A stretch of 64,000 nt of DNA from Chelydra serpentina (taxonomy: Eukaryota > Chordata > Testudines > Chelydridae): the NCBI GenBank assembly GCA_037349315.1, contig JBAIAC010000004.1, forward strand, positions 30,879,001 through 30,943,000, in the 5' to 3' direction. Below the pieces are notes generated by a model. The model was given only the letters and a program-made list of their open reading frames with translations. It searched no databases and had not been told where the DNA came from. Of this stretch, positions 3,543-57,209 are shown piece by piece (within the stretch, counting starts at the first letter, position 1; each line of letters starts with the position of its first letter). The translations under genes and the position numbers were made by a program.

Positions 3543-3547
3543 GTCTT

Positions 3548-4042
3548 TGTTACGGAGTGTAGGGGAGTTTGGCCCTGCACCCCTTTTTTCCGTATTTACT
3601 GGGAGTTTTAGCCAGCCAGTAGAACAGAAGGTTTATTAGAGATGCCAGGAACACAGCCCAGCCAGAGCTTGTTAGTACATTCAGGACCCCTTAGTCGGGT
3701 TCTTTTGGGGGGCAGGGAGCTTAGACCCCAGCCTGGGGCTCCCTGCATTTTGCCCCACAGCTCCAGACGGGGCAGGGAGGCCAGACCCTGTCTGCCTCTC
3801 TCCCCTTTTCTCTGGCCAGCTTTAAACTGAAACCCAAAAGCCAAACCCTTCAGCAGTCTTTTTTCCCCTCCCCCTGGGCCCCTCCTCTAGCCTGTTACCA
3901 TTTTTTCAGCCAAAGGTGTTACCTTCCAACCCCCGTCCTGGCTTATGTTACAGCCTCAGGTAAAGTCTTGCATTTTCAATGCAGCCTGTCCTAATGCAGT
4001 TGTTACTTAGGTCAGATTCATCTTGCTTTTTACTTCGTTACA
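3548..4042 (-). repeat. 3' LTR (element sense), hypermutated copy
   Basis: 495 bp with no indels against its partner. Hand alignment gives 29 differences. 26 are C in the partner and T here on the + strand, 3 are transversions, and none is the reverse transition. 23 of the 26 follow a T, and the other three follow a C. Confidence 0.9.
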
Positions 4043-4056
4043 TTTCTTCCCCCTTT
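4043..4056 (-). promoter_or_regulatory. Polypurine tract
   Basis: In element sense the bases just before the 3' LTR are AAAGGGGGAAGAAA, an all-purine run directly abutting the LTR. It would prime plus-strand DNA synthesis. Confidence 0.8.
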
Positions 4057-4259
4057 GAGACTGAACTGAGCGGGGTTACTTTAGCTAGTGACCTGGGGAA
4101 GTTTGAACCCGGTTACACCAGGCCGTTACAGTTTGACGAGCTTCCTTAGGTTGGGTGGGCTGGATGGCACCCGCAGGCCGCATGTGGGAAGGGTTATGCG
4201 GCCCGTGCCCTTTTTTTATTTTTAAACCCCTGGGGTTTAAGCTGAGATGAGCTTTTTTT

Positions 4260-4990
4260 TTAGCGCTTCAGTTTGGAGGGCTGTAGTTTGGGCTTTTTTG
4301 GTTAAGAGCCTTCCTTTTGATTTGGTTTCCTTTTTGACCACGTGTTTGTGTTACCAGCCGCTTGGCATCGGCCCCTTTTTCTGGATGCAGCCACTTTGGG
4401 GCGAAGTGGTGAATATACACTGTAAAGCGCCACCCAAATAGATTTGGCTGATGCTTTTTAAGGGCCTGCCCCATGGCCAGGCATTTCCTTTTTATGGCCG
4501 GACCGCTTTGCCTTCAGGGCAGCAGCTTCTTGCTCAGATACCCGATGGGGCGTTTTCCCCGCTTTGCATAGGCCTGCATTAGCACCACGCCCAGCCCTGT
4601 GTTTGAGGCTTTGGTGAACACTGTACAGGGCTTGGCCCCGTTTGGGTTTACTTGATTTATAGGGCCCTGGATTAGAGCCTTCTTTAGCGCACAGAGAGCC
4701 CTTTGGCCCTGCTCGGTTTAGACTGCCTTGTTTGGCTTTCTTTTTTTACCTAGCTCTGTGATGGGGGCAGCTAGGGAGCTAAAGGGGGGTACAAACCTTT
4801 GGTGGTACCCCGCCATTCCGCTAAAGGCCTGGACCTGTTTTTTGGTTTGGGGAACAGGCCAATTTTTGATTGCCTTTGCCTTGGCCAGCCCAGGGCTGTT
4901 GAATGACTGGTTTACCTTTAAAGCCAGCCTGTTTTTGGCCTTTTTTTCAGGTTTTGGGCTTTTTTCCCAGTTACTTTGACTGGGGGACAC
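4260..4990 (-). pseudogene. RT thumb and RNase H remnant of the gypsy-type element
   Basis: The 4990-4718 frame carries the RT thumb-connection text KAIKNWPVPQTKKQVQAFSG then GYHQRFVPPFSSLAAPI, highly typical of Ty3/gypsy and retroviral RT. Further down, about 4640-4560 reads as the start of an RNase H (CTVFTKASNTGLGVVL, then GYLSKKLLP). The 4474-4268 frame continues with FTVYIHHFAPKWLH. The RNase H Asp positions are changed (TKAS, YIHH). The RT fingers/palm with its catalytic motif is absent. Several stops and frame changes exist, and the region is very poor in TC on the + strand. Confidence 0.78.
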
Positions 4991-5030
4991 CTGATGGAAG
5001 GATGGGCTTTCATTTTAGGGGAGAGATTCA

Positions 5031-5555
5031 TCAGGGTTTTTTTTTTATTTTTTTTTTATTGTTTTTTACCGGTTTTAGGGGTTTCCTTACTTTTTTTTTA
5101 TACCACAGCTTGAAAGGGAAGCCCCCTGGTGATTTTTGGGGCACTTCCTTGTGCCATTGGTGGGGCAGGTACTTGTTTAAGTCCTGTGGATGCTGATTGA
5201 TGCAAGTTTTTAGCATCAGCCTTATGGTTCCCTGAACTTTTTTCACCAGCCCATTGCACTGGGGATGATATGCTGAGGCCCAACTGTGCCGGACCCCACA
5301 TTTTTTCCACAAGCACCGGAGCAGGGCCGACATGAAGTTGGACCCTTGGTCTGTTAGGACTTTTTTGGGGAACCCCACTCGGCTGAAAATGGTTAGCAGC
5401 GCATCCGCCACGGTGTCTGCTTTAATGGAGGATAAGGGCACCGCCTCGGGGTAGCGGGTGGCGAAATTTACCACCACCCGAATGTACTTTTTCCCCGACT
5501 GGGTTGCCCTGCTGAGGGGGCCCACCCTATTCATAGCCACCTTCTGGAAAGGTTT
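5031..5555 (-). pseudogene. Integrase domain of the gypsy-type element, catalytic residues lost
   Basis: The C-terminal 175 residues of a 435-codon open frame (6338-5031) read as a retroviral/gypsy DDE integrase core: VVVNFATRYPEAVPL, then LTDQGSNFMSALL, then ASAYHPQCNGLV. Of the catalytic triad only the second Asp (residue 330) is present. The first position is Asn (291) and the third is Lys (366), with the D-x35 spacing kept. Residues 251-435 contain 28 Lys but only 8 Asp/Glu, unlike a normal integrase. The frame is nevertheless free of stops, as expected if changes were concentrated at GA dinucleotides, which mostly turn Glu/Asp codons into Lys/Asn. The C-terminal tail is almost pure Lys/Asn/Pro. 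It precedes RT, as in Gmr1-like elements. Confidence 0.85.
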
Positions 5556-6199
5556 CTCCCTGATGGGCAGGGACCTCCGGGGATTTTCTCCCTTACCCTG
5601 GACCAGGTACAATAGCCGGTGATGATACTTTGGGTGCCCCACTGGCTGCCTTTTGATTTCCCGCAGTTCTACTTCCCCTTGGGAAGCCCATTTTCGGCAC
5701 AGGAATCCCTTCTCCCACAGGGATTTGTCTTTGCAGTTTTCCCCAAGGGGGTTTGCAGCGCCGTGGCCAGCAAGTTCCCTTAGCTTTTTTAAAGCGGGAT
5801 CCCTCTGCAGCTCACTGGCCAGGCCTGGGGTCACCGCCCCACTGAGCCCTGTCCCTGGTGGCTTTTTCCCTGCCGTGGAATCACTTCCCGGCAGCACCTT
5901 TGGACCAGGCAAGTCTGGTTGGCAGCCGTTCTGCCCTGCCTGTGTGTCCCCCCACTTAGCTGGGGTTTTTGCTCCCCCGGTGCTCATCTTTGCCCTGGCT
6001 GTCCCTGTGGGGCCAGGCAGCGAGCTCGCTGCTTTGGTCACAGCATCAGAGACTGCCTGAGCCACCTTTTTATTGTGCAGGGGGGTGGGGAGCATCTCTT
6101 TGTCCCACCCCGCCCTAGGGGTCTGGTTACAAGCAGGCAGGTAACCAGGGCCTGGCAGCTCCTTTCCCCTGCCAGCCAGGTTATTTGCATTTTTACTGA

Positions 6200-6645
6200 C
6201 CATTTTCCTTTTAGCCAATTGGTTTTTTGAGTTTAAATTTAAATTCTTGGCCGTTACAGGGCCTGGATCCTGTTTCAAAGATACACAGTTACCCCCCAAC
6301 AGCACCTTACCGCTGATATTTTGGAGACCCCCAACCACTAGCCAGCCTGACCCCCTTCTGGGTCTGCACAGGGATCTGGGCCATAGGCAGGGCGAATGGG
6401 TCCGTCCCTGGGACCCTCACCCAGGTCACACAGCCCCTTAGCATCTGGTGGGGGTGCACCACCCGGGGCCTGACCACAATTTTTTTTGTTCCGGGGTCTT
6501 GCCGCCCCCCGAATGTTTTTTCATTGACCATTAGCTTTCGCTTCCACTGGGGGTCCATAGGGCTTGAGTTCAGGGCCAGGAGTGGAAATCCGTTCACCAT
6601 TCCACCCATTTGGCTGGTGGAGTTTATGGCCTTGGGACCCAGCAA
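6200..6645 (-). pseudogene. Protease-like segment of the gypsy-type element, damaged
   Basis: The segment runs across two frames, 6645-6307 and then the start of the 6338-5031 frame. It contains VNGFPLLALNSSP, where an aspartic protease would carry its D-[ST]-G site, and further on ISGKVLLGGN, resembling the conserved C-terminal protease region. At both places the expected Asp reads Asn, which a G-to-A change would explain. The frame switch means at least one frameshift. The assignment rests on position between Gag and integrase and on these weak motifs. Confidence 0.45.
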
Positions 6646-6687
6646 GGGGGTTAGATCCCGGGGCTTTTCCGCAGGGTCTTCCTGGTT

Positions 6688-7359
6688 TTAATTACCAGCC
6701 TGCTTCAAGGCAGTGAGGTGGGCCTCCACATCCCCACCCTCCTTAACCACGGGCAGCAATTTAGGATCGAGGTTTCCTGCGGAGCTGGCACCCCGGGATC
6801 TGTTCCCACTTACCCCTGGCCAGTCCCCTATGCCTTTTCGTTTTACCACCACAAGTTCACACTGCTGCTTTTTTTGTAGGTCTTTCTCGGGCTCTTGCTG
6901 TCTTTTACTGTCCTCTTGCTCTTTCGGACTTAGCTCTAGTTCCATTTGTCTCCGATCCCCTGCTGGGGAACCCGATCGTGAAGACCCCCGTCTGGTTGGG
7001 GACCAGACTCTTGGGGATGCCAGGCTATTACTCCAGCTGCTCCCAGATTCTGCTGTAGCCCCATTGGGGTCAGGAATCTGCTCCCTGGAATGGTCATCCT
7101 CCTCCAGCCGCGTGATTAACTGGGCTTTAGTGACCTTTTCAATGGGTATCCCTTTCTTTTTGCACAGGGTTACAATGCTCTTCTTAAGGAGAAGGCGATA
7201 CGCCATCACGTCACTGCTCCCAAGTTGCTGTGGATCCGCAGGCCTGTGTGCTTTTAGCTCCCCACGGTTTCCAGGATGAACCCCAAGTGTGCCAGCCTTT
7301 CTCCAGGTCACCGCCTCTTTGCCAGGGTCGAGCTGCAGCTCCTCCGCCCCTGGGTCCAC
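6688..7359 (-). pseudogene. Gag-like open frame of the gypsy-type element
   Basis: A 223-residue open frame is the first frame after the primer site. Residues about 52-89 (YRLLLKKSIVTLCKKKG, then AQLITRLEEDD) resemble a small helix-extension-helix DNA-binding motif of SAP type; this is tentative. A Ser/Arg-rich segment (residues about 107-135) and a charged, probably coiled-coil segment (about 138-175) follow. The position argues for Gag, but no capsid or zinc-knuckle signature is visible and the downstream part of Gag is probably deleted. This end of the element is only lightly affected by GA-to-AA change. The true start is uncertain. Confidence 0.55.
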
Positions 7360-7648
7360 TCACGGCACCCCCAGGGGAACCCTGTCACTGCAAAATTCCT
7401 TCTCTCTCCCAGGGCCAAGCCGCAGGCTCCTCCGCCCCTGGGACTGCTCACTGCAGTCCCCAGGGGGACCCCATCATTGCACAGTCCTTCTCGCTGGTCA
7501 CACACTCCCAGGGGTTAAGCGTAGCTCCTCCGCTCCCCGAAACCGCTCCTCCGTGAGCCTTCAGCACGCCTGGTCCTCGTTAGCCCCCCTTTGTTTTACT
7601 GCTCCCCAGTTACTTACTGCAGGAAGCGCCGTTCACGGGGTGCAGAAC

Positions 7649-7666
7649 ATCCCACCGCTGCCACCA
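7649..7666 (-). promoter_or_regulatory. Primer-binding site matching the tRNA-Leu 3' end
   Basis: The + strand reads ATCCCACCGCTGCCACCA, which equals the 3' end of vertebrate tRNA-Leu (AAG/UAG type) including CCA. The minus (sense) strand is therefore complementary to that primer over 18 nt. It lies two bases inside the LTR edge, a usual spacing for LTR elements. Confidence 0.8.
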
Positions 7667-7668
7667 GT

Positions 7669-8163
7669 TGTTACGGAGTGTAGGGGAGTTCGGCCCTGCA
7701 CCCCTTTTTCCCGGATTTACTGGGAGTTTTAGCCAGCCAGTAGAACAGAAGGTTTATTAGAGATGCCAGGAACACAGCCCAGCCAGAGCTTGTTAGTACA
7801 TCCAGGACCCCTCAGTCGGGTTCTTCCGGGGGGCAGGGAGCTTAGACCCCAGCCTGGGGCTCCCTGCATTTCGCCCCACAGCTCCAGACGGGGCAGGGAG
7901 GCCAGACCCTGTCTGCCTCTCTCCCCTCTTCTCCGGCCAGCTTTAAAGTGAAACCCAAAAGCCAAACCCTCCAGCAGTCTTTCTTCCCCTCCCCCAGGGC
8001 CCCTCCTCTAGCCTGTTACCATTCTCCCAGCCAAAGGTGTCACCTCCCAACCCCCGTCCTGGCTCATGTTACAGCCTCAGGTAAAGTCTTGCATTTCCAA
8101 TGCAGCCTGTCCTAATGCAGTTGTCACTCAGGTCAGATCCATCTCGCTCTCTACTCCGTCACA
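7669..8163 (-). repeat. 5' LTR (element sense) of the gypsy-type element
   Basis: 495 bp, TG...CA, lying next to the primer-binding site. It keeps the C residues that are T in the other LTR, so it is the unedited copy. On the minus strand it should carry the element promoter; no core promoter motif is assigned. Confidence 0.9.
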
Positions 8164-8300
8164 GTCTTATACTTAGATTGTAAGCTCCTTGGAGCAAGGG
8201 CTATCTTTCTGATCTGTGCTTGTACAGCACCTAGCACTGTGGGGTCCTTGTCTATGTTGGGAGTCCTAAGTGCTATCACAGTACAAATAATAATAATAAT
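8164..8300 (+). repeat. tRNA-SINE tail split by the gypsy-type insertion
   Basis: TTAGATTGTAAGCTCCTTGGA, then TGTACAGCACCTAGCAC, then a (TAA)n run near 8287-8298 are the widespread 3' end of reptile/bird tRNA-derived SINEs. The left part of the same SINE lies before 3548. A second tail of this kind is at about 59465-59550. Confidence 0.6.
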
Positions 8301-22625: not shown

Positions 22626-22769
22626 TGTGTGTGTATGCAGAGAGAGTATGTGAGTATACATACCCACAAATTTTGATGGAAAATGACTGAGGTGGCAGGT
22701 ATATCACACCTCCAAGCTCTAGCAGTTTGTGATTAAGTGTGGACTTTAAACTATGTATTAACCCATCCA

Positions 22770-23677
22770 ATGGGGGGGAACATCCAATGTGACAGGTGCC
22801 TGCTGGTGGAATCTCTCAGGCAGCAGGTGGGAGAGCTACAGGAGGAGGTGGCTAGATTGAGGAGCATCCAAGTCCATGAACAATTCCTGGACAGTGTCCA
22901 TGTGGAGACAGCTGAGGTAGCTGTCCCAGTACACAGGACTGCTGACACACCACTGGTGGAGGAGGAAATGGCTCAGGGTGGACACTGGCAGCTGGTTACT
23001 TCTGGCAGCAGGCAGTGCTCCACCCCTGCTCCAAACCCTGCCACCATGGTAATAGGAAACCGTTATGCTCTTCTTGATACAGGAGAGAAGGAATCTCCCC
23101 CTACAGCAGAGGAGGAGAAGCCTTGTACCCCTAAGGCTGGGAAGTCTGCTGCCACCACTGCGAATAGGAAACGTAGGGTAGTGGTGGTCAGAGACTCTCT
23201 GCTGAGGGGGACGGAGGCGCCCATCTGTTGCCCTGACATTTCATCTCAGGAGGTATGCTGCCTGCCGGGGCTCGTATTCGAGACATTACGGAGGCATTGT
23301 CAAGGATTATCCGGCCCTCTGACTACTACCCCATGCTACTCATCCATGTGGGCACAAATGATACTGCGAGATGTGACACTGAGCAGATCAAGAGTGACTA
23401 CAGGGCTCTGGGAGTACGGGTGAAGGAGTTTGGAGCGCAGGTGGTATTCTCTTCGATCCTTCCTGTCAAAGGTAGGGGACCGGGCGGAGACAGGTGCATC
23501 GTGGAGGTGAATGCCTGGCTGCGAAGATGGTGTCGCCAGGAGGGCATTGGCTTCCTCGACCACTGGATGCTAATCCAGGAAGAACTGCTAGGCAGAGATG
23601 GCGTTCACCTTTCGAGGAGGGGAACGACCCTATTTGGATACAGACTGGCTAACCTAGTGAGGAGGGCTTTAAACTAG
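22770..23677 (+). pseudogene. CR1 ORF1 with SGNH/GDSL esterase domain, one frameshift
   Basis: The N-terminus has a CxxC pair (IQCDRCLLVES) followed by a predicted coiled coil (LRQQVGELQEEVARLRS). A spacer and a basic patch (NRKRRVVVV) lead into an SGNH-type esterase domain with DSLLRG, HVGTND and DGVHLS; the last carries the Asp/His pair. The residue before DSLL is Arg, where the family usually has Gly. The frame breaks at about 23272: the first frame runs to 23423 out of phase, and the second continues from 23255 to the stop at 23677. A one-base loss in the GGGG run at 23270-23273 would account for this. In CR1 elements ORF1 binds nucleic acid, and the esterase role is unclear. Confidence 0.85.
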
Positions 23678-23835
23678 GTTCAATGGGGACAGGTGAGCAA
23701 AGCCCACAGGTAAGTGGAGAACATGGGGACCTGGGAGCTGGGTCGTAAATAAGAGGGGGCATGGGCTCTAATGATAAAGAGATAGGAGGGTCAGGGCAAA
23801 ACTGGGAGGCAAGATCAAATCAGTATCTTAGATGC

Positions 23836-26589
23836 CTGTATACAAATGCGAGAAGTATGGGTAATAAGCAGGAAGAACTGGAAGTGCTAATAAATAAATT
23901 CAACTATGACATTGTTGGCATCACCGAAACTTGGTGAGATAATACACATGATTGGAATGTTGGTATGGATGGGTACAGCTTGCTCAGGAAGGACAGACAG
24001 GGGAAAAAGGGAGGAGGTGTTGCCTTATATATTAAAAATGTACACACTTGGACTGAGGTGGAGATGGACATAGGGGACGGAAGTGTTGAGAGTCTCTGGT
24101 TTAGGGTAAAAGGGGTAAAAAACAAGGGTGATGTCATGCTAGGAGTCTACTACAGGCCACCTAACCAGGTGGAAGAGGTGGATGAGGCTTTTTTTAAACA
24201 ACTAACAAAATCATCCAAAGCCCAAGATTTGGTGGTGATGGGGGACTTCAACTATCCAGATAGATGTTGGGAAAATAACACGGCGGGGCACAAACTATCC
24301 AATAAGTTCTTGGACTGCATTGCTGACAACTTTTTATTTCAGAAGGTTGAGAAAGCTACTAGGGGGGAAGCTGTTCTAGATTTGATTTTAACAAATAGGG
24401 AGGAACTCGTTGAGAACTTGAAAGTAGAAGGCAGCTTGGGTGAAAGTGATCATGAAATCCTAGAGTTCACAATTCTAAGGAAGGGTAGAAGGGAGTACAG
24501 CAAAATAGAGACAATGGATTTCAGGAAAGCGGATTTTGGTAAGCTCAGAGAGCTGATAGGTAAGGTCCCATGGGAATCAAGACTGAGGGGAAAAACAACT
24601 GAGGAGAGCTGGCAGTATTTCAAAGGGACACTATTAAGGGTCCAAAAGCAAACTATTCCGCTGGGTAGGAAAGATAGAAAATGTGGCAAAAGACCACCTT
24701 GGCTTAACCACAAGATCTTGCAAGATCTAAATAATAAAAAGGAGTCATATAAAACATGGAAACTAGGACAAATTACAAAGGATGAATATAGGCAAACAAC
24801 ACGGGAATGCAAGGGCAAGATTAGAAAGGCAAAGGCACAAAATGAGCTCAAACTAGCTACAGGAATAAAGGGAAACAAGAAAACTTTTTATCAATACATT
24901 AGAAGCAAGAGGAAGACCAAGGACAGGGTAGGCCCACTACTCAGTGAGGAGGGAGAAACAGTAACAGGAAACTTGGAAATGGCAGAGATGCTTAATGACT
25001 TCTTTGTTTCGGTCTTCACCGAGAAGTCTGAGGGAATGCCTAACATAGTAAATGCAAATGGGAAGGGGGAAGGTTTAGAAGATAAAATAAAAAAATAACA
25101 AGTTAAAAATCACTTAGATAAGTTAGATGCCTGCAAGTCACCCGGACCTGATGAAATGCATCCTAGAATACTCAAGGAGCTAATAGAGGAGGTATCTGAG
25201 CCTCTAGCTATTATCTTTGGTAAATCATGGGAGACAGGAGAGATTCCAGAAGACTGGAAAAGGGCAAATATAGTGCCCATCTATAAAAAGGGAAATAAAA
25301 ACAACCCAGGAAACTACAGACCAGTTAGTTTAACTTCTGTGCCAGGGAAAATAATGGAGCAAGTAATTAAGGAAATCATCTGCAAACACTTGGAAGGTGG
25401 TAAGGTGATAGGGAATAGCCAGCATGGATTTGTAAAGAACAAATCATGTCAAACCAATCTGATAGCTTTCTTTGATAGAATAACGAGTCTTGTGGATAAG
25501 GGAGAAGCGGTGGATGTGGTATATCTAGACTTTAGTAAGGCATTTGATACGGTCTCGCATGATATTCTTATAAATAAACTAGGGAAATACAACTTAGATG
25601 GGGCTACTATAAGGTGGGTGCACAACTGGCTGGATAACCATACTCAGAGAGTAGTTATTAATGGTTCCCAATCCTGCTGGATAGGTATAACGAGTGGGGT
25701 TCCGCAAGGGTCTGTTTTGGGACCAGCTCAGTTCAATATCTTCATCAACGACTTGGATATTGGCATAGAAAGTACGCTTATTAAGTTTGCAGATGATACC
25801 AAACTGGGAGCGATTGCAACTGCTTTGGAGGATAGGGTCATAATTCAAAATGATCTGGACACATTGGAGAAATGGTCAGAGGTAAACAGGATGAAGTTTA
25901 ATAAGGACAAATGCAAAGTGCTCCACTTAGGTAGGAACAATCAGTTTCACACATACAGAATGGGAGGAGACTGTCTAGGAAGGAGTACGGCAGAAAGGGA
26001 TCTAGGGGTTATAGTGGACCACAAGCTAAATATGAGTCAACAGTGTGATGCTGTTGCAAAAAAAGCAAACTTGATTCTGGGCTGCATTAACAGGTGTGTT
26101 GTGAGCAAGACACGAGAAGTCATTCTTCCGCTCTACTCTGCGCTGGTTAGGCCTCAACTGGAGTATTGTGTCCAGTTCTGGGCACCACATTTCAAGAAAG
26201 ATGTGGAGAAATTGGAGAGGGTCCAGAGAAGAGCAACAAGAATGATTAAGGGTCTAGAGAACATGACCTATGAAGGAAGGCTGAAGGAATTGGGTTTGTT
26301 TAGTTTGGAAAAGAGAAGACTGAGAGGGGACATGATAGCGGTCTTCAGGTATCTAAAAGGGTGTCATAAGGAGGAGGGAGAAAACTTGTTCATCCTAGCC
26401 TCTGAGGATAGAACAAGAAGCAATGGGCTTAAACTGCAGCAAGGGAGGTTTAGGTTGGACATTAGGAAAAAGTTCCTAACTGTCAGGGTGGTTAAACACT
26501 GGAATAAACTGCTCAGGGAGGTTGTGGAATCTCCATCTCTGGAGATATTTAAGAGTAGGTTAGATAAATGTCTATCAGGGATGGTCTAG
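23836..26589 (+). pseudogene. CR1 ORF2 (APE endonuclease and reverse transcriptase), two in-frame stops
   Basis: All parts lie in one frame. The endonuclease has YTNARSM, GITETW (catalytic Glu), VMGDFNYPD and GESDHEI. The reverse transcriptase has [32 protein letters not shown] and the catalytic FADDTKLG, then the CR1 C-terminus. A TGA at 23935-23937 follows TETW where Trp is usual, and a TAA at 25096-25098 separates endonuclease and RT. No frameshift is seen over 2.7 kb. The RT half alone (25156-26589) is a continuous 477-codon frame with the catalytic Asp pair intact. The exact start is uncertain. Confidence 0.92.
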
Positions 26590-45186: not shown

Positions 45187-46690
45187 ACTTATTACTGGTC
45201 AGTACAGGGATTGTAACCTGTCCTTTAAATCGGCTTCTGTACCCAATGACTGGAAGATAGCTAATGTAACGCCAATATTTTAAAAGGACTCTAGAGGTGA
45301 TCCCGGCAATTACAGACTGGTAAGTCTAACATCCATGCCGGGCAAATTAGTTGAAACAATAGTAAAGAATAAAATTGTCAGGCACATAGAAGAACATACA
45401 TTGTTGGGCAAAAGTCAACATGGTTTCTGTAAAGAGAAATCATGCCTTACTAATTTATTAGAGTTCTTTGAAGAGGTCAACAAACATGTGGATAAGGGCG
45501 ATCCAGTAGACATAGTGTACTTAGATTTCCAGAAGGCCTTTGACAAGCTCCCTCACCAAGGCTCTTACGTAAATTAAGTTGCCATGGGATAAGAGGGAAG
45601 ATCCTTTCACGGATTGAGAACTGGTTAAAAGACAGGGAACAAAGGGTAGGAATAAATGGTAAATTTTCAGAATGGAGAGGGGTAACTAGTGGTGTTCCCC
45701 AAGGGTCAGTCCTAGGACCAATCCTATTCAACTTATTCATAAATGATTTGGAAGAAGGGGTAAACAGTGAGGTGGCAAAGTTTGCAGATGATACTAAGGT
45801 GCTCAAGATAGTTAAGACCAAAGCAGACTGTGAAGAACTTCAAAAAAATCTCACAAAACTAAATGATTGGGCAACAAAATGGCAAATGAAATTTAATGTG
45901 GATAAATGTAAAGTAATGCACATTGGAAAAAATAACCCCAACTATACATACAATATGATGAGGACTAATTTAGATACAACTAATCAGGAAAAAGATCTTG
46001 AGGTCATCGTGGATAGTTCTCTGAAGACGTCCATGCAGTGTGAAGCGGCAGTCAAAAAAGCAAACAGGATGTTAGGAATCATTAAAAAAGGGATAAAGAA
46101 TAAGACAGATCATATCTTATTGCCCTTATACAAATCCATAGTGCACCCACATCTTGAATACTGCATACAATTGTGGTCTCCTCATCTCAAAAAGGATATA
46201 CTGGCATTCAAAAAGATTCAGAGAAGGGCAGCTAAAATGATTAGGGGTCTGGAACGTGTCCCATATAAGGAGAGATTAAAGAGGCTAGGATTTTTTTAGC
46301 TTGGAAAAGAGGAGACTAAGGGGGGATATGATAGAGGTATATAAAATTATGAGTGGTGTGGAGGAAGTGAATAAGGAAAAGTTATTTACTTGTTCTCATA
46401 ATAGAAGAACTAGGGGGGCAACCAATGAAATTAGTGGGCAGCAGGTTTAAAACAAATAAAAGGAAGTTCTTCTTCACACAGCACACAGTCAGCCTGTGGA
46501 ACTCCTTGCCTGAGGAGACTGTGAAGGCTAGGACTACAACAGGATTTAAAAGAGAACTGGATAAATTCATAGAGATGAAGTCCATTAATGGCTATTAACC
46601 AGGATGGGTAAGGAATGGTGTCCTTAGCCTCTGTTTGTCAGAGGCGGGTGATGGATGGAAGGAAAGTGATCACTTGATCATTACCTGTTA
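45187..46690 (+). mobile_element. CR1 LINE 3' part nested in the older LINE
   Basis: A + strand CR1 carries RT motifs: NYRLVS-type text near 45310, QHGFCKEKSCLTNL, VYLDFQKAFDKLPH (45335-45577) and, after a frame break near 45565, EVAKFADDTKVLK, TKWQMKFNVDKCKVM and HLEYCIQLWSPHL (45748-46299), then the 3' end near 46690. The catalytic FADD is intact. There are about two frameshifts and several stops. Confidence 0.88.
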
Positions 46691-51306: not shown

Positions 51307-52924
51307 AGGTCTCACATCCCTGGGGGTGGATGGGATTCAGCTGGAGCTGATGGAGGTGGCTTTATGAGGACATTTCTCAGGATTAGGATGAAGAAGGTCA
51401 GAGATCCCAGGAAATGGTGGGAGTGGTAGTAGTGCTCAAGTAGCCAAATTTTCTCCCTTAGAGTCTCCTTTTTAAGGCCCCCAAAAGGGAGTGATGGGTG
51501 GAATGGCCTGGCCCCTCATTACTTTATCTGGCAATTAGGCCCAACATACCAATTTTGGTTTATTGATTTTTGATCCTCAACTTCTTTTGTTTACAAGGCA
51601 TGATCTTAACATAGTCTTTGAGTTATGCTAGTAAAGCCTTTTTGTATGGACTGTTTCAGCTATTCTGTCTCCCTTTCATACCGTTCCCATCAGCATGTGT
51701 TATCAGTTATTGTGATATCTTATAAACTTCCACTGTTCTCAGCTGCGCTCCCAATTAGGGTAAATTTGTTCGCCCAGTATTACAATAGCCTCCTCTTCCC
51801 CTTCCAGGATGGGGAGTGGGCAGCTCCAGAAGCTCTTCACCCCTTCCCAGGCAGGTGTTGCAGGGAGGGATGAGGAGCAGAAGTGCCATCCTGTCCTCAT
51901 TTGCCCACAGCAGGGGCGGGGAGAGGAGCCGCCCTGTGGGCTCTTTAGCACCCTTCTGTGAGAATGGCTTTGATTTGCTATGGGGAGGAGAGAGCTCTGC
52001 GACAGCTTTGATTGGTTATTTTGCCCCAGGAGACAGGCAAATGGTGCTGCCATCCAGAGGGCACAAATTCTCAACAGGCCTAGAGCTTCTTGCGTTATCA
52101 AGAGACTGGCTCCAGCCCCCTCAAATCATGTCATTGGTGAAAAAAATCATGGAAGTTGATAACTTCATTGTATGAACAGGTTTGAGAGGCTGCCTCTAAT
52201 CATACGCTCCATTCTGACAACTGAGATATATTTCTTAGTAATACCTAGATCTGTGCTCAGTGGCACTAGCAAGAGTATGATTTGCAATCACTGGGATTTT
52301 ACAAGAATTTGGATTAACCAAATGACTTCTAGTTTTTGTTTGTTTGTTTTTTCCCCAGGCACCAGTGACATTTTGTAACAACTAAGAAATTTTCAGAAAA
52401 TGTGTAAGCCCATTTATTGATCGTGGGAAATTAATTCCACCCACTGAACCAGACTTTTTTAAATTCTGAGCTGCAACTGTGGTTTCTTAACTTCCCATTG
52501 CATCAAGTTGTTGCATGCTATGTATAAATACTCTGGAAATCAGATACATGAATATTTTTCTTAATACAACTTTATATTGAGATATCAAAAATTGGTCAAG
52601 AGATACAAAAGAAACACAACCCTGTAAAAGTTTGACCCTGAAAATTAGTAGTTTATTCTGCAAAGACCAAAGCACATGCTTAACTTTATGCATTGTGGGT
52701 AATCCTGTTTATTTCAATAAAGTTCATAAAACTAAAGACGTGTGCAAGTCCTTTCAATGTCAGGGCTTTAAATTGTTTAATAAATCATCTTATCCCATCC
52801 TCTAATTTTGTTGCCCTTTGATCAAAATAATAGATATGCACCAATGTTTTTGTAAGACTCTAAAGAAGACTGTCATAACAAGTTACATCTAACTTGTACA
52901 TCTATCTCTTTCACACCTGTGTGG
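51307..52924. other. CNTN5: Intronic stretch with no confident feature
   Basis: 51780-52100 is GC-richer with overlapping chance open frames. 52600-52740 resembles a reptile repeat (GCACATGCTTAACTTTATGC). Confidence 0.4.
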
Positions 52925-53160
52925 CCATCTTGTTTATCACTTCAAAGGTTTTTCTTCCCCTGCTCTTATGGTTCCTCTCAATTAATTAGCCTCTTGAGGT
53001 TGGTCTATGCACCTCCACCTTATCATGTTTCTCTGACTGTATAAATATCTGTCTACTGTATATTTCATTCCATGCATCCGATGAAGTGGGTTCTAACCCA
53101 CGAAAGCTTATGCTGAAATAAATGTGTTAGTTTCTAAGGTGCTACAAGTTTTTCTTTCTT
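52925..53160 (+). repeat. Widespread amniote interspersed repeat end
   Basis: GCATCCGATGAAGTGGGTTC, ACCCACGAAAGCTTATGC, an AATAAA and GTTTCTAAGGTGCTACAAG form a text seen in many reptile and bird repeats. The element class is not settled. Confidence 0.5.
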
Positions 53161-54595
53161 ATTTTCAAGTTACATCTAGTCGGTGAAAAGTACTTATTGA
53201 AGAATTTTTGCAAAAAAATATTTTAAAATATGTGAAAACTAAGTTAGATTTCTTCTAAAAAAAAATCCTTAAAGAAATGTAAGAAAGAATTCCAAAGAAA
53301 GACAGTTTACCTTCTATAAAAACATTCTAAAATCCTCCCACTTGCAAGCTATTTTAACGCGTTTAAAAAAAAAAAAAGCACTAGTCAAAAAAATTAGTTC
53401 CAAAATAATCCTAAATATGTAGGTTAGGAGGTGGTGTGTCACAAATTAGTCCTTCTGGATGGAAACCTTGAGATTTCTCTGCTTAATTCAAAAATTGCTG
53501 CATTTAAAAGCAGTGGTGGGGAGTGGGTTGAGGGGAGAATGTGAAAGGCTTCAAGGTTCCAAAGTCTAGGCTTTCATCAATTCATAGAGTTTAGGGCCAA
53601 AAGGGATAATTATGTCATCTAGTCTGACTGGCTGTACATTACAGGCTGTTAAGTTTTACCCAGTGATATTGATATTGAGCCCAATAAATTTTGTTTGCGT
53701 AAAGCATAACTTACCTACGGTCTTATCTAGGGTTTCACTTGGGTGTCTTTAGGCTCATCATAGAAGTTCCCTTCTGTCCAATTATTTTATATTAGTCCTG
53801 ATGGTCTGGTCCAAAAATAGTTCAGTCACTATAGCCTCAGAGTGGGGAACATTTCCCATCCCATTCTACCTCTCTGCTTGAGCCTTCAAACTAATGTTGT
53901 TCCACACTCCATTAAAATGCAGAAAAGCAACTGACTGCACCTCACCATCACTCAGAAACGTGACCTTCATTCATTGACTCTTCCATATTACTTTTAATTT
54001 TTACTCCAGACGTCAGTAAAACCCTCCATGTTATAGCAGGGCATTCAAGTCATAGGAATGGGACTGGTCAGTTTGTAATTCTGAGGTTCTACTGTAGCTT
54101 TTGTTTGTCCTTTTCCTATATGGGAAGAACTGAGTAAACAAAAAGACTCTCAGATCTTAATAGAGTGCAATTTCCTGTGATCCTCATCCTTTTTTTCATA
54201 TCCTAAGGCCCCCTTTTGGTATATTAGAACCCCTACTCCCAGAATCCTTCTACTGTCTACCTGCATAAACCTCCCATTTAGAAATATAGAAAGTCATGAT
54301 GCCCAGGTTGTGTACCCCTCGCCCATTAAAGCAGTCCTAAATTATTAATGGATTTAAAATGGACAGTGCCACAGCAGTTACCATATGGAGTTTTAAAAGG
54401 GTAGTACCACTAGAATAGAATTAGAAGGTTCTTTCCCCATCAAAAGTTATCATTTGTCAACACTTGTCTCAATATTACCTCAGATTACCCACTGTTTTCC
54501 CTATATGTAGAAGAGGAGGTGTTTGTGGTAACAGTTTGTTACCCGGGGTTCTTTCAACCTGAAGCTCTTGGTAACTTTTACTCTGTGCGAGGTGG
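53161..54595. other. CNTN5: Intronic stretch with one old CR1 3' trace
   Basis: 53578-53640 (GGGATAATTATGTCATCTAG) looks like a minus-strand CR1 3' end. No other feature. Confidence 0.45.
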
Positions 54596-55750: not shown

Positions 55751-56012
55751 CGGTGGTTCTCAACTGTGGTCCACCGCTTCTTCAGGGAAAGCCCCTGGCG
55801 CGTCGGGCTGGTTTGTTGACCTGCCGCATCCGCAGGTTTGGCCGGTCATGGGTCCCTCTGGCCACGGGATGTGCTGTTCACCGTGTCCCACAGCCCCCAT
55901 TGGCCTGGAGTGGCGACCGGCCGAATCTGCGGACGCAGCAGGTCAACAAACCGGCCCAGCATGCCAGGGGCTTTCCCTGAAGAAGCGGTGGACCACAGTT
56001 GAGAACCACTGA
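55751..56012. mobile_element. hAT MITE with very long inverted repeats and perfect 8-bp duplication
   Basis: The two outer 97 bases are near-perfect inverted repeats (C(G/A)GTGGTTCTCAACTGTGG...), leaving a short central loop. Target duplications ACTTAAAC are identical at 55743-55750 and 56013-56020. GC-rich, non-coding. Confidence 0.93.
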
Positions 56013-56391
56013 CTTAAACAGTGTTCGTTTGGATTATGGACCAGCCCAAACTGTGCAGCTTTGTGTACCTTAATTCACTTAGTGCAGTTCACCAAAAGCT
56101 AGTCCTGGGGTAGCTTATTTTTAGTTTGGAAGCCTGCCCTGATAGAAGGGTGATAAGGAGCCAACTGCCAACATGTGTTTCTACAAATATATTAGGCTGA
56201 CTTAAACAGCCTAATGCAAAATGCACTCCCCAAGACCTTTAATGATTTTGGACAAACCTTGGAGGAGTTTTATTATGTGAACATGTAAAACTATGATAGT
56301 TGAACCCCTGCTTCTCTGTGTTTCACTGTGTGAAATGGGAAAATTTCCCCCAAATCCTTAGACCAGTAATTGCAAATTAAATTACAGGCAC

Positions 56392-56583
56392 TGGCCCAAA
56401 TTCAGAAGGTGAGTCTAAGAGAATTGGGAGGGAATCTAAATTGGTATAAATTACACTGTGTTTTACTTCTACTACCCTGTATTACACTTGCTGAGACTTA
56501 CATGATCAGACACATTATACTCACACTTACTTACTAATTTGAAATTTACACTCCTTCTACACACCACATCGAGATTTGGCCCA
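56392..56583. repeat. Small palindromic repeat
   Basis: The ends TGGCCCAAATTCAG and GAGATTTGGCCCA are inverted. This is a type of reptile repeat often found near other palindromes; duplications not seen. Confidence 0.45.
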
Positions 56584-56824
56584 TAGATTCAATGCATACC
56601 AATCTCCCTCAGTTCAGTAATACTAATGTTTATATACTAATATACCAAATTCACAGGTGACATGGGAGGAAACGTGCATTTTAGATTTCAATATACACAC
56701 AAGTATGGCAGGACTCACCAGCTGGTGCTGTTACAAATAATTTTACAAGTTCTTTTCCTTAGTGTGAGAGTACTTTACAGCCCTGAAATAAAGGATGTTG
56801 TGGTGTTTATTTTGTGCTACAATC

Positions 56825-57209
56825 CACAGGTGGCGACTTTCTGATTTCCTTGGAGGTGCTCGACCCCCGCTATGGCCCAGGCCCCACCCCAGTCCACCCC
56901 TTCCTCCAGACCCCCCCCCCTGCTCTTCCTCTTCCCACCCCGCCACTTCCTACTCCCGCTCCACCCCAGCCCGTTCTTCCCCCTCCCCCAAGTGTGCCCT
57001 GCCCTAACCCCGCCTCTTCCTGCTCCTGCTCCTCCCTCTCCCCCCAGCATCTCCTGCCCGACTCTGAACGGCTGATCAGCAGTGGGTGGGAGGCACTGTG
57101 GGGGAAGGGGCAGAGCTGATCAGCGGGGCCCACTGGTGGGTGCTGAGCACCCACTATTTTTTTCTGTGGGTGCTTCAGCCTCGGAGCACCCATGGAATTG
57201 GCGTCTATG
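56825..57209. mobile_element. CpG/C-rich hAT-type element with perfect 8-bp duplication
   Basis: CTACAATC flanks both sides (56817-56824, 57210-57217). The ends CACAGGTGGCGAC and (inverse) CATAGACGCCAAT pair. The right part has GTGGGTGCTGAGCACCCAC. It is the same family as 33521-33792, but with a long C-rich interior. The open frames on both strands are compositional. Confidence 0.85.

Follow-up and report, generated by a model that had tools for sequence, protein, structure and literature searches.

Strand-biased 5′-TC hypermutation of a Ty3/gypsy-group LTR retrotransposon in a turtle genome, very probably arising during reverse transcription

Endogenous MMTV in the mouse (Mtv17, 21, 61, and 62) carries 3′-LTR-specific G-to-A hypermutation by Apobec3, and the edits found only in the 3′ LTR have been explained by a second single-stranded phase after plus-strand transfer, according to the excerpted sections of Shaffer et al. 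(2025, PMC12548423) that we draw on. Among non-mammalian vertebrates, APOBEC editing of zebra finch LTR elements was described by Knisbacher and Levanon (2016, as cited in excerpts of PMC6523648), apparently also the source of zebra finch entries in a table of PMC12548423. For the green anole, the excerpted text of Lindic et al. (2013, PMC3880073) describes G-to-A editing of LINE1, but not of lizard L2, CR1, or LTR elements, and presents lizard APOBEC1 as a DNA mutator and proposed anti-retroelement factor. Among the matches listed in the open-licence literature, we found no report of APOBEC editing in turtles and none of a reptilian gypsy-type element edited by APOBEC enzymes. The element described here lies in a 64,000-nucleotide stretch of the Chelydra serpentina genome (hereafter, the window). 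Like the mouse Mtv loci, as covered by the excerpts of PMC12548423, it combines edits in both LTRs with edits unique to the 3′ LTR, a TC-type context, an edited interior, and consecutive edits within C tracts; it differs in host (turtle), in element (Ty3/gypsy group rather than betaretrovirus), and in editor (probably APOBEC1-type rather than Apobec3). As in the zebra finch, in the part of PMC6523648 consulted, a vertebrate other than a mammal has LTR elements with C-to-U edits; as in the anole (PMC3880073, excerpts), the host is a non-mammalian amniote. The combination of shared and 3′-LTR-only edits is therefore already known from the excerpted mouse report (PMC12548423); the turtle host, the Ty3/gypsy-group element, and the probable involvement of APOBEC1 are new. 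We consider it very probable that the cDNA of a recent insertion was edited during reverse transcription by a single-strand DNA cytosine deaminase with 5′-TC preference, most likely an APOBEC1-like enzyme.

The element is bounded by a target-site duplication, GTCTT, whose left copy (3543..3547) abuts position 3548 and whose right copy (8164..8168) lies directly past 8163. The preliminary description had read it on the minus strand, with the plus strand as its first-strand cDNA, and this polarity is borne out by a minus-strand integrase frame and by the sense purine tract AAAGGGGGAAGAAA (4043..4056, minus strand) beside the LTR at 3548. This tract, the 3′ polypurine tract (PPT) that serves as plus-strand primer, has a corresponding tract in 13 of 13 copies. 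The orientation makes 3548..4042 the 3′ LTR, opposite the 5′ LTR at 7669..8163 (both minus strand), and the window's plus strand the first cDNA strand. A 15-base primer-binding site (PBS), TGGCAGCGGTGGGAT, was read from the sequence at 7649..7663 on the minus strand and is presumably complementary to tRNA-Leu. The integrase core domain (rve, PF00665, E = 4.1e-11) occupies 5262..5555 on the minus strand, residues 288-385 of a 461-amino-acid open frame (5031..6416, minus strand) whose nearest relatives are turtle proteins, including one from Macrochelys suwanniensis with 81% identity over 86%; Ty3 Gag-Pol is also among the matches. With its TG..CA LTRs, 5-bp duplication, PPT, and rve integrase, the element is a short Ty3/gypsy-group LTR retrotransposon. 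We infer that its insertion was recent. The family has many copies in the 2.28-Gb assembly, and a viral contig scan with one LTR piece returned no match.

In Gmr1-like Ty3/gypsy elements, the integrase precedes the reverse transcriptase (RT). By eye, from sequences and domain lists, the turtle relatives P0012 and P0014 follow this order, and some turtle relatives of the integrase frame carry RT or RNase H domains. The window element likewise has an RT/RNase H-like piece after its integrase frame in sense order, but the four frames tried besides the integrase frame gave no Pfam match. Judged by eye, the 4.6-kb element seems to lack an RT core and was probably mobilised by the machinery of other elements. 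Its 5′ part contains a local duplication of about 79% identity (7315-7407 and 7402-7495) that is also present in seven sister copies. Elsewhere in the window, long open frames at 22737-26589 and 45544-46299 resemble, by eye, the endonuclease and reverse transcriptase of non-LTR retrotransposons.

Comparison of the two LTRs reveals the direction of change. A recount agreed with the preliminary description that both are 495 bp long without indels and differ at 29 positions: relative to the 5′ LTR, the 3′ LTR shows 26 C-to-T changes, no T-to-C change, and three transversions, with 23 of the 26 following T and two of the three CC cases adjoining another changed C. The 26:0 asymmetry has a binomial p of 3e-8. 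Had the related copies carried T at these sites, the direction would have been misread; instead, all 29 other LTR copies have C at 23 of the 26 sites, and C is found in 26, 28, and 28 of them at the remaining three. The T state is derived. The same copies exposed 12 additional sites, each following T, at which both window LTRs carry T and the other copies carry C (29/29 at 11 sites, 28/29 at one). The earlier view that one LTR had been edited thus holds for the 3′ LTR but not as an exclusive statement, as the whole element is edited and the 5′ LTR carries 12 edits, all common to the 3′ LTR. The number of C-to-T changes in the 3′ LTR is 38 or 36 depending on the reference; the lower figure comes from a reference without L032 and L037, both edited, and from a count that skips end columns and any column below 90% agreement. 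The 5′ LTR has in addition one G-to-A change at 7996, where 29 of 29 other copies have G, which we read as CpG decay. Since 26 of the 29 LTR differences are edits, the divergence of this pair would overestimate the age of the insertion roughly tenfold, and LTR-divergence dating can fail badly with edited elements of this kind.

Shared and 3′-only edits occupy different positions within the LTR (Mann-Whitney p = 9e-4). The U3/R/U5 boundaries were set by two motifs, a TATA-like TTTAAA at sense position 217 and AATAAA at position 406, so that the R/U5 limit used in these counts is a presumed one, and duplicate rows were removed before the per-region LTR and CC-run counts. The 5′ LTR is edited at 7/7 TC sites in U5, 2/10 in R, and 3/35 in U3; the 3′ LTR is edited at 7/7, 6/10, and 19/35, respectively.

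Across the whole element, 260 C-to-T changes were counted against 19 other changes, with 4,407 of the 4,616 columns scored and 209 left unscored. By context, edits fall on 213/411 TC, 46/632 CC, 0/196 AC, and 1/313 GC sites. The opposite strand has two G-to-A changes against the 260 (TC 1/174, CC 1/413). Equal change in other contexts, or in both directions, had been named as grounds for abandoning the hypermutation reading, and neither was seen: AC and GC together gave 1/509, and the CC edits lie mostly behind an edited C. In a scoring that left out the element's middle, an edited C preceded 33 of 38 CC edits, as if a first edit created the next target in CC runs. The base after TC has little effect (A, 41/76; C, 80/172; T, 75/133; G, 19/34). 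When 1-kb stretches across the window are ranked by TC depletion, the top seven all fall over the element. Mild GA depletion and TC depletion (>2 SD) are also present at 52501-54250 and 56001-57000 and could mark further edited elements.

The context also speaks to the class of enzyme. The preliminary description had invoked AID/APOBEC-family editing, and the two halves of that proposal part ways here. The APOBEC-type half agrees with the TC preference. AID prefers WRC sites, and only 1/247 of these are edited. That AID itself edited the cDNA is very unlikely, even with an AID gene present beside the APOBEC array described below, given the absence of edits at AC (0/196), the single edit at GC (1/313), and the 213/411 at TC.

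Editing is not uniform along the interior. From PBS to PPT, the edited fractions of TC sites are, in order, 3/43, 16/44, 17/35, 15/16, 10/31, 15/35, and 93/103; the series is lowest at the 5′ end of the interior (7169..7668, minus strand), which is almost unedited, highest in its 3′ part (4043..5309, minus strand), where editing is near-saturated, and irregular in the middle. The transition at the 5′ LTR is abrupt: its U5 (7669..7743, minus strand, a boundary drawn from AATAAA) is edited at 7/7 TC sites and the adjoining interior at 2/21 (p = 3e-5). Kataegis-like chromosomal deamination after insertion, apart from reverse transcription, deserves consideration because such clusters also show TC context and strand bias. 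We regard it as exceedingly improbable, as the edits are distributed along the axis from PBS to PPT with a step at the LTR boundary, the 1-kb TC depletion peaks over the element, and edits track the strand of the element in 25 further stretches of the family.

The gradient is also not smooth, with 25/66 TC sites edited at 5310-6161 versus 15/16 at 6162-6360. Allowing a single reset improved on a monotone gradient, with the optimum lying between 6164 and 6161, and 11 of 300 simulations matched the gain. This position falls within an internal purine tract (6159..6170, minus strand) that has a 9-base core in common with the 3′ PPT in sister copies. That this tract primes the plus strand internally, as a central polypurine tract, is a tentative and rather unlikely proposal. 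The drop recurs in the four edited copies that span it, a fifth (C154) falling short of the place; when 15-17 edited copies are considered, the contrast is weaker, about 0.9 versus 0.5, and the 9-base core is missing from a colder zone at 6357-6445. In the comparison with the next 20 copies, C154 was omitted below 6361. Common hot and cold sites explain the drop at least as well as an internal primer. Over 5600-6700, hot and cold TC sites are consistent among 15-17 apparently independently edited copies.

We propose that a deaminase with 5′-TC preference would act on the first (minus) cDNA strand while it is single-stranded during reverse transcription, and that copying would fix the resulting uracils as C-to-T on the window's plus strand, equivalent to G-to-A in the element sense. 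The LTR end of the minus strand would be edited before being copied into plus-strand strong-stop DNA, which would place edits in both LTRs (the 12 shared sites). Transfer of plus-strand strong-stop DNA to the far end would return the minus-strand DNA that is to become the 3′ LTR to a single-stranded state, and during this second phase further edits would accumulate at the 26 sites restricted to the 3′ LTR. The interior gradient is broadly in line with such exposure, with its minimum at the PBS and its maximum upstream of the PPT, and the edited state is derived and discrete. A fully edited U5 beside a nearly unedited interior would be expected if U5 were edited as minus-strand strong-stop DNA and then carried over by plus-strand strong-stop DNA. 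The timing of edits within reverse transcription is our reconstruction from these patterns, and early U5 editing is not general: in another edited element, C34, edits near the U5 end are confined to the 3′ LTR but for one. Editing of this extent would be expected to reduce the spread of the element.

Further edited copies had been anticipated in the same genome, and we found 25 more edited stretches, perhaps 24 separate insertions. Two of 36 other LTR copies are edited, namely L032, with 17 C-to-T of 18 private changes, and L037, a solo LTR, with 8 of 9; private C-to-T changes number 0 to 2 in each of the other 34. Not all LTR copies are independent, since some loci look like one insertion on two contigs (L003/L005 and L007/L009 have common flanks). 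At the L032 locus (C272:59803-60297), the edited LTR is followed by ten PBS-side bases and then by sequence unlike the family interior. When the edited interior served as query, edited copies ranked closer than unedited ones among the best 40 of 2,259 candidates: the top four matches after the window were all edited, as were 19 of the next 20; two of these 19 agree in their counts and could represent a single insertion present on two contigs. We drew a sample selected independently of editing, using a 16-base pattern without TC or CC that occurs exactly at 459 places. Every second of the first 79 of 100 listed places was taken, giving 40 copies, of which 39 were comparable (L132, aligning over 19 bases, was left out). 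Three of the 39 were edited (exact interval, 1.6-20.9%), in a sample that spans the first contigs in a listing by contig and, through its exact pattern, favours young copies. These three were already among the best edited-interior matches.

Editing in this sample is all-or-nothing, with 21-30 of 32 TC sites edited in the three copies versus 0-1 in the other 36. This discreteness bears on methyl-CpG decay, already discounted in the preliminary description, and on gene conversion with another copy as donor to one LTR, readings to which we give next to no credence. Beyond the change at 7996, nothing specific favours them; CpG sites after A or G are changed at 0/30, which excludes CpG decay as the main cause, and no donor with the site set of the 3′ LTR was found among the best 40 matches to that LTR. 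Overall, the hypermutation reading of this locus is supported, as ancestral C, TC context, a single direction, and other edited copies were each confirmed, with the extent of editing and the role of AID corrected.

The shared sites by themselves fit inheritance and fresh editing alike. The element could descend from an already edited parent, from which it would have inherited the 12 shared sites together with part of the interior, leaving only the 3′-LTR-only sites as new, and the mouse offers a precedent in Mtv23, copied from edited Mtv17 (PMC12548423, in the excerpts). We consider such descent quite improbable for the window element. The full shared set occurs in 0/36 other LTR copies, the maximum being 3/12 in the edited L032, although a parent outside the best 40 matches scored per search is possible. 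Nor is any pair among 16 edited copies, compared over 65 TC sites of the middle region, alike beyond site and copy effects (largest value 2.24, null 95% 5.98; C154, with fewer than 40 sites, was left out). Sister copies were apparently edited independently, with the proviso that ancestry common to all would be masked by the site effects of the model. Because editing is all-or-nothing and apparently independent, the order of steps in reverse transcription could be read from this family as from a natural recorder.

LTR pairs were also compared in other edited elements. Fourteen, including the window element, were tried, and 12 pairs were directly comparable; C154 and C26 were left out of the tally (15 and 21 bases aligned). 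From 5′ to 3′ LTR, the C-to-T:T-to-C counts are 26:0 (window), 48:0 (C34), 15:0 (C108), 7:0 (C231), and 6:0 (C248), followed by 1:0 each in C20, C3, and C51, 0:0 in C57 and C214, 0:1 in C9, and a reversed 1:7 in C98 (L112/L113), whose right flank is cut so that its duplication is uncheckable. The pairs of C51, C3, C20, C214, and C231 aligned over 92-307 bases only. A strong 3′-LTR excess is thus seen in five elements; several have none, and in one the bias is reversed. Three unedited control pairs gave 2:1, 0:0, and 0:0, and two of the control elements, C236 and C443, are apparently the same insertion. Matching duplications flank the window element, C34, C108, C248, and C9; C57 has none, and the flanks of the others are cut or mismatched. 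Edits shared by both LTRs together with 3′-unique edits occur in the window element (12 shared sites), C34 (2), C108 (6), and C248 (16). When C248 is compared with the majority of other copies, two 5′-only sites appear as well, which its direct LTR pair lacks.

We searched the genome for possible sources of the editor. A profile search returned 13 APOBEC_N matches, seven of which, one with stops, form a same-strand array on contig C8 (130.734-130.867 Mb). Five array members were read and all five are APOBEC1-like. For one, L050, the best match of the domain in the PDB is APOBEC-1, and turtle relatives are named APOBEC-1-like. Three opposite-strand matches beside the array look like one gene, and the one read matches AID best. 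Two further matches, L046 and L052, we take to resemble APOBEC2 and APOBEC4. No APOBEC3 was recognised in the eight of 13 matches read. By context and elimination, the most likely editor is an APOBEC1-like protein from the array beside AID, which singles out a specific gene array as a candidate source. First-strand editing with LTR-specific timing, described for mouse Apobec3, would thereby be extended to a reptile whose eight deaminase matches read include no recognised APOBEC3. Whether turtles use an APOBEC1-based counterpart of the mammalian APOBEC3 defence, combining an expanded tandem array, near-saturating germ-line cDNA editing, and LTR pairs in which the timing of steps in reverse transcription is preserved, is in our judgement evenly poised. 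Within the array and its surroundings (C8:130734158-130877517; L047-L051 and L053), L048 and L050 are identical over more than 90 residues, suggesting a recent duplication or conversion.
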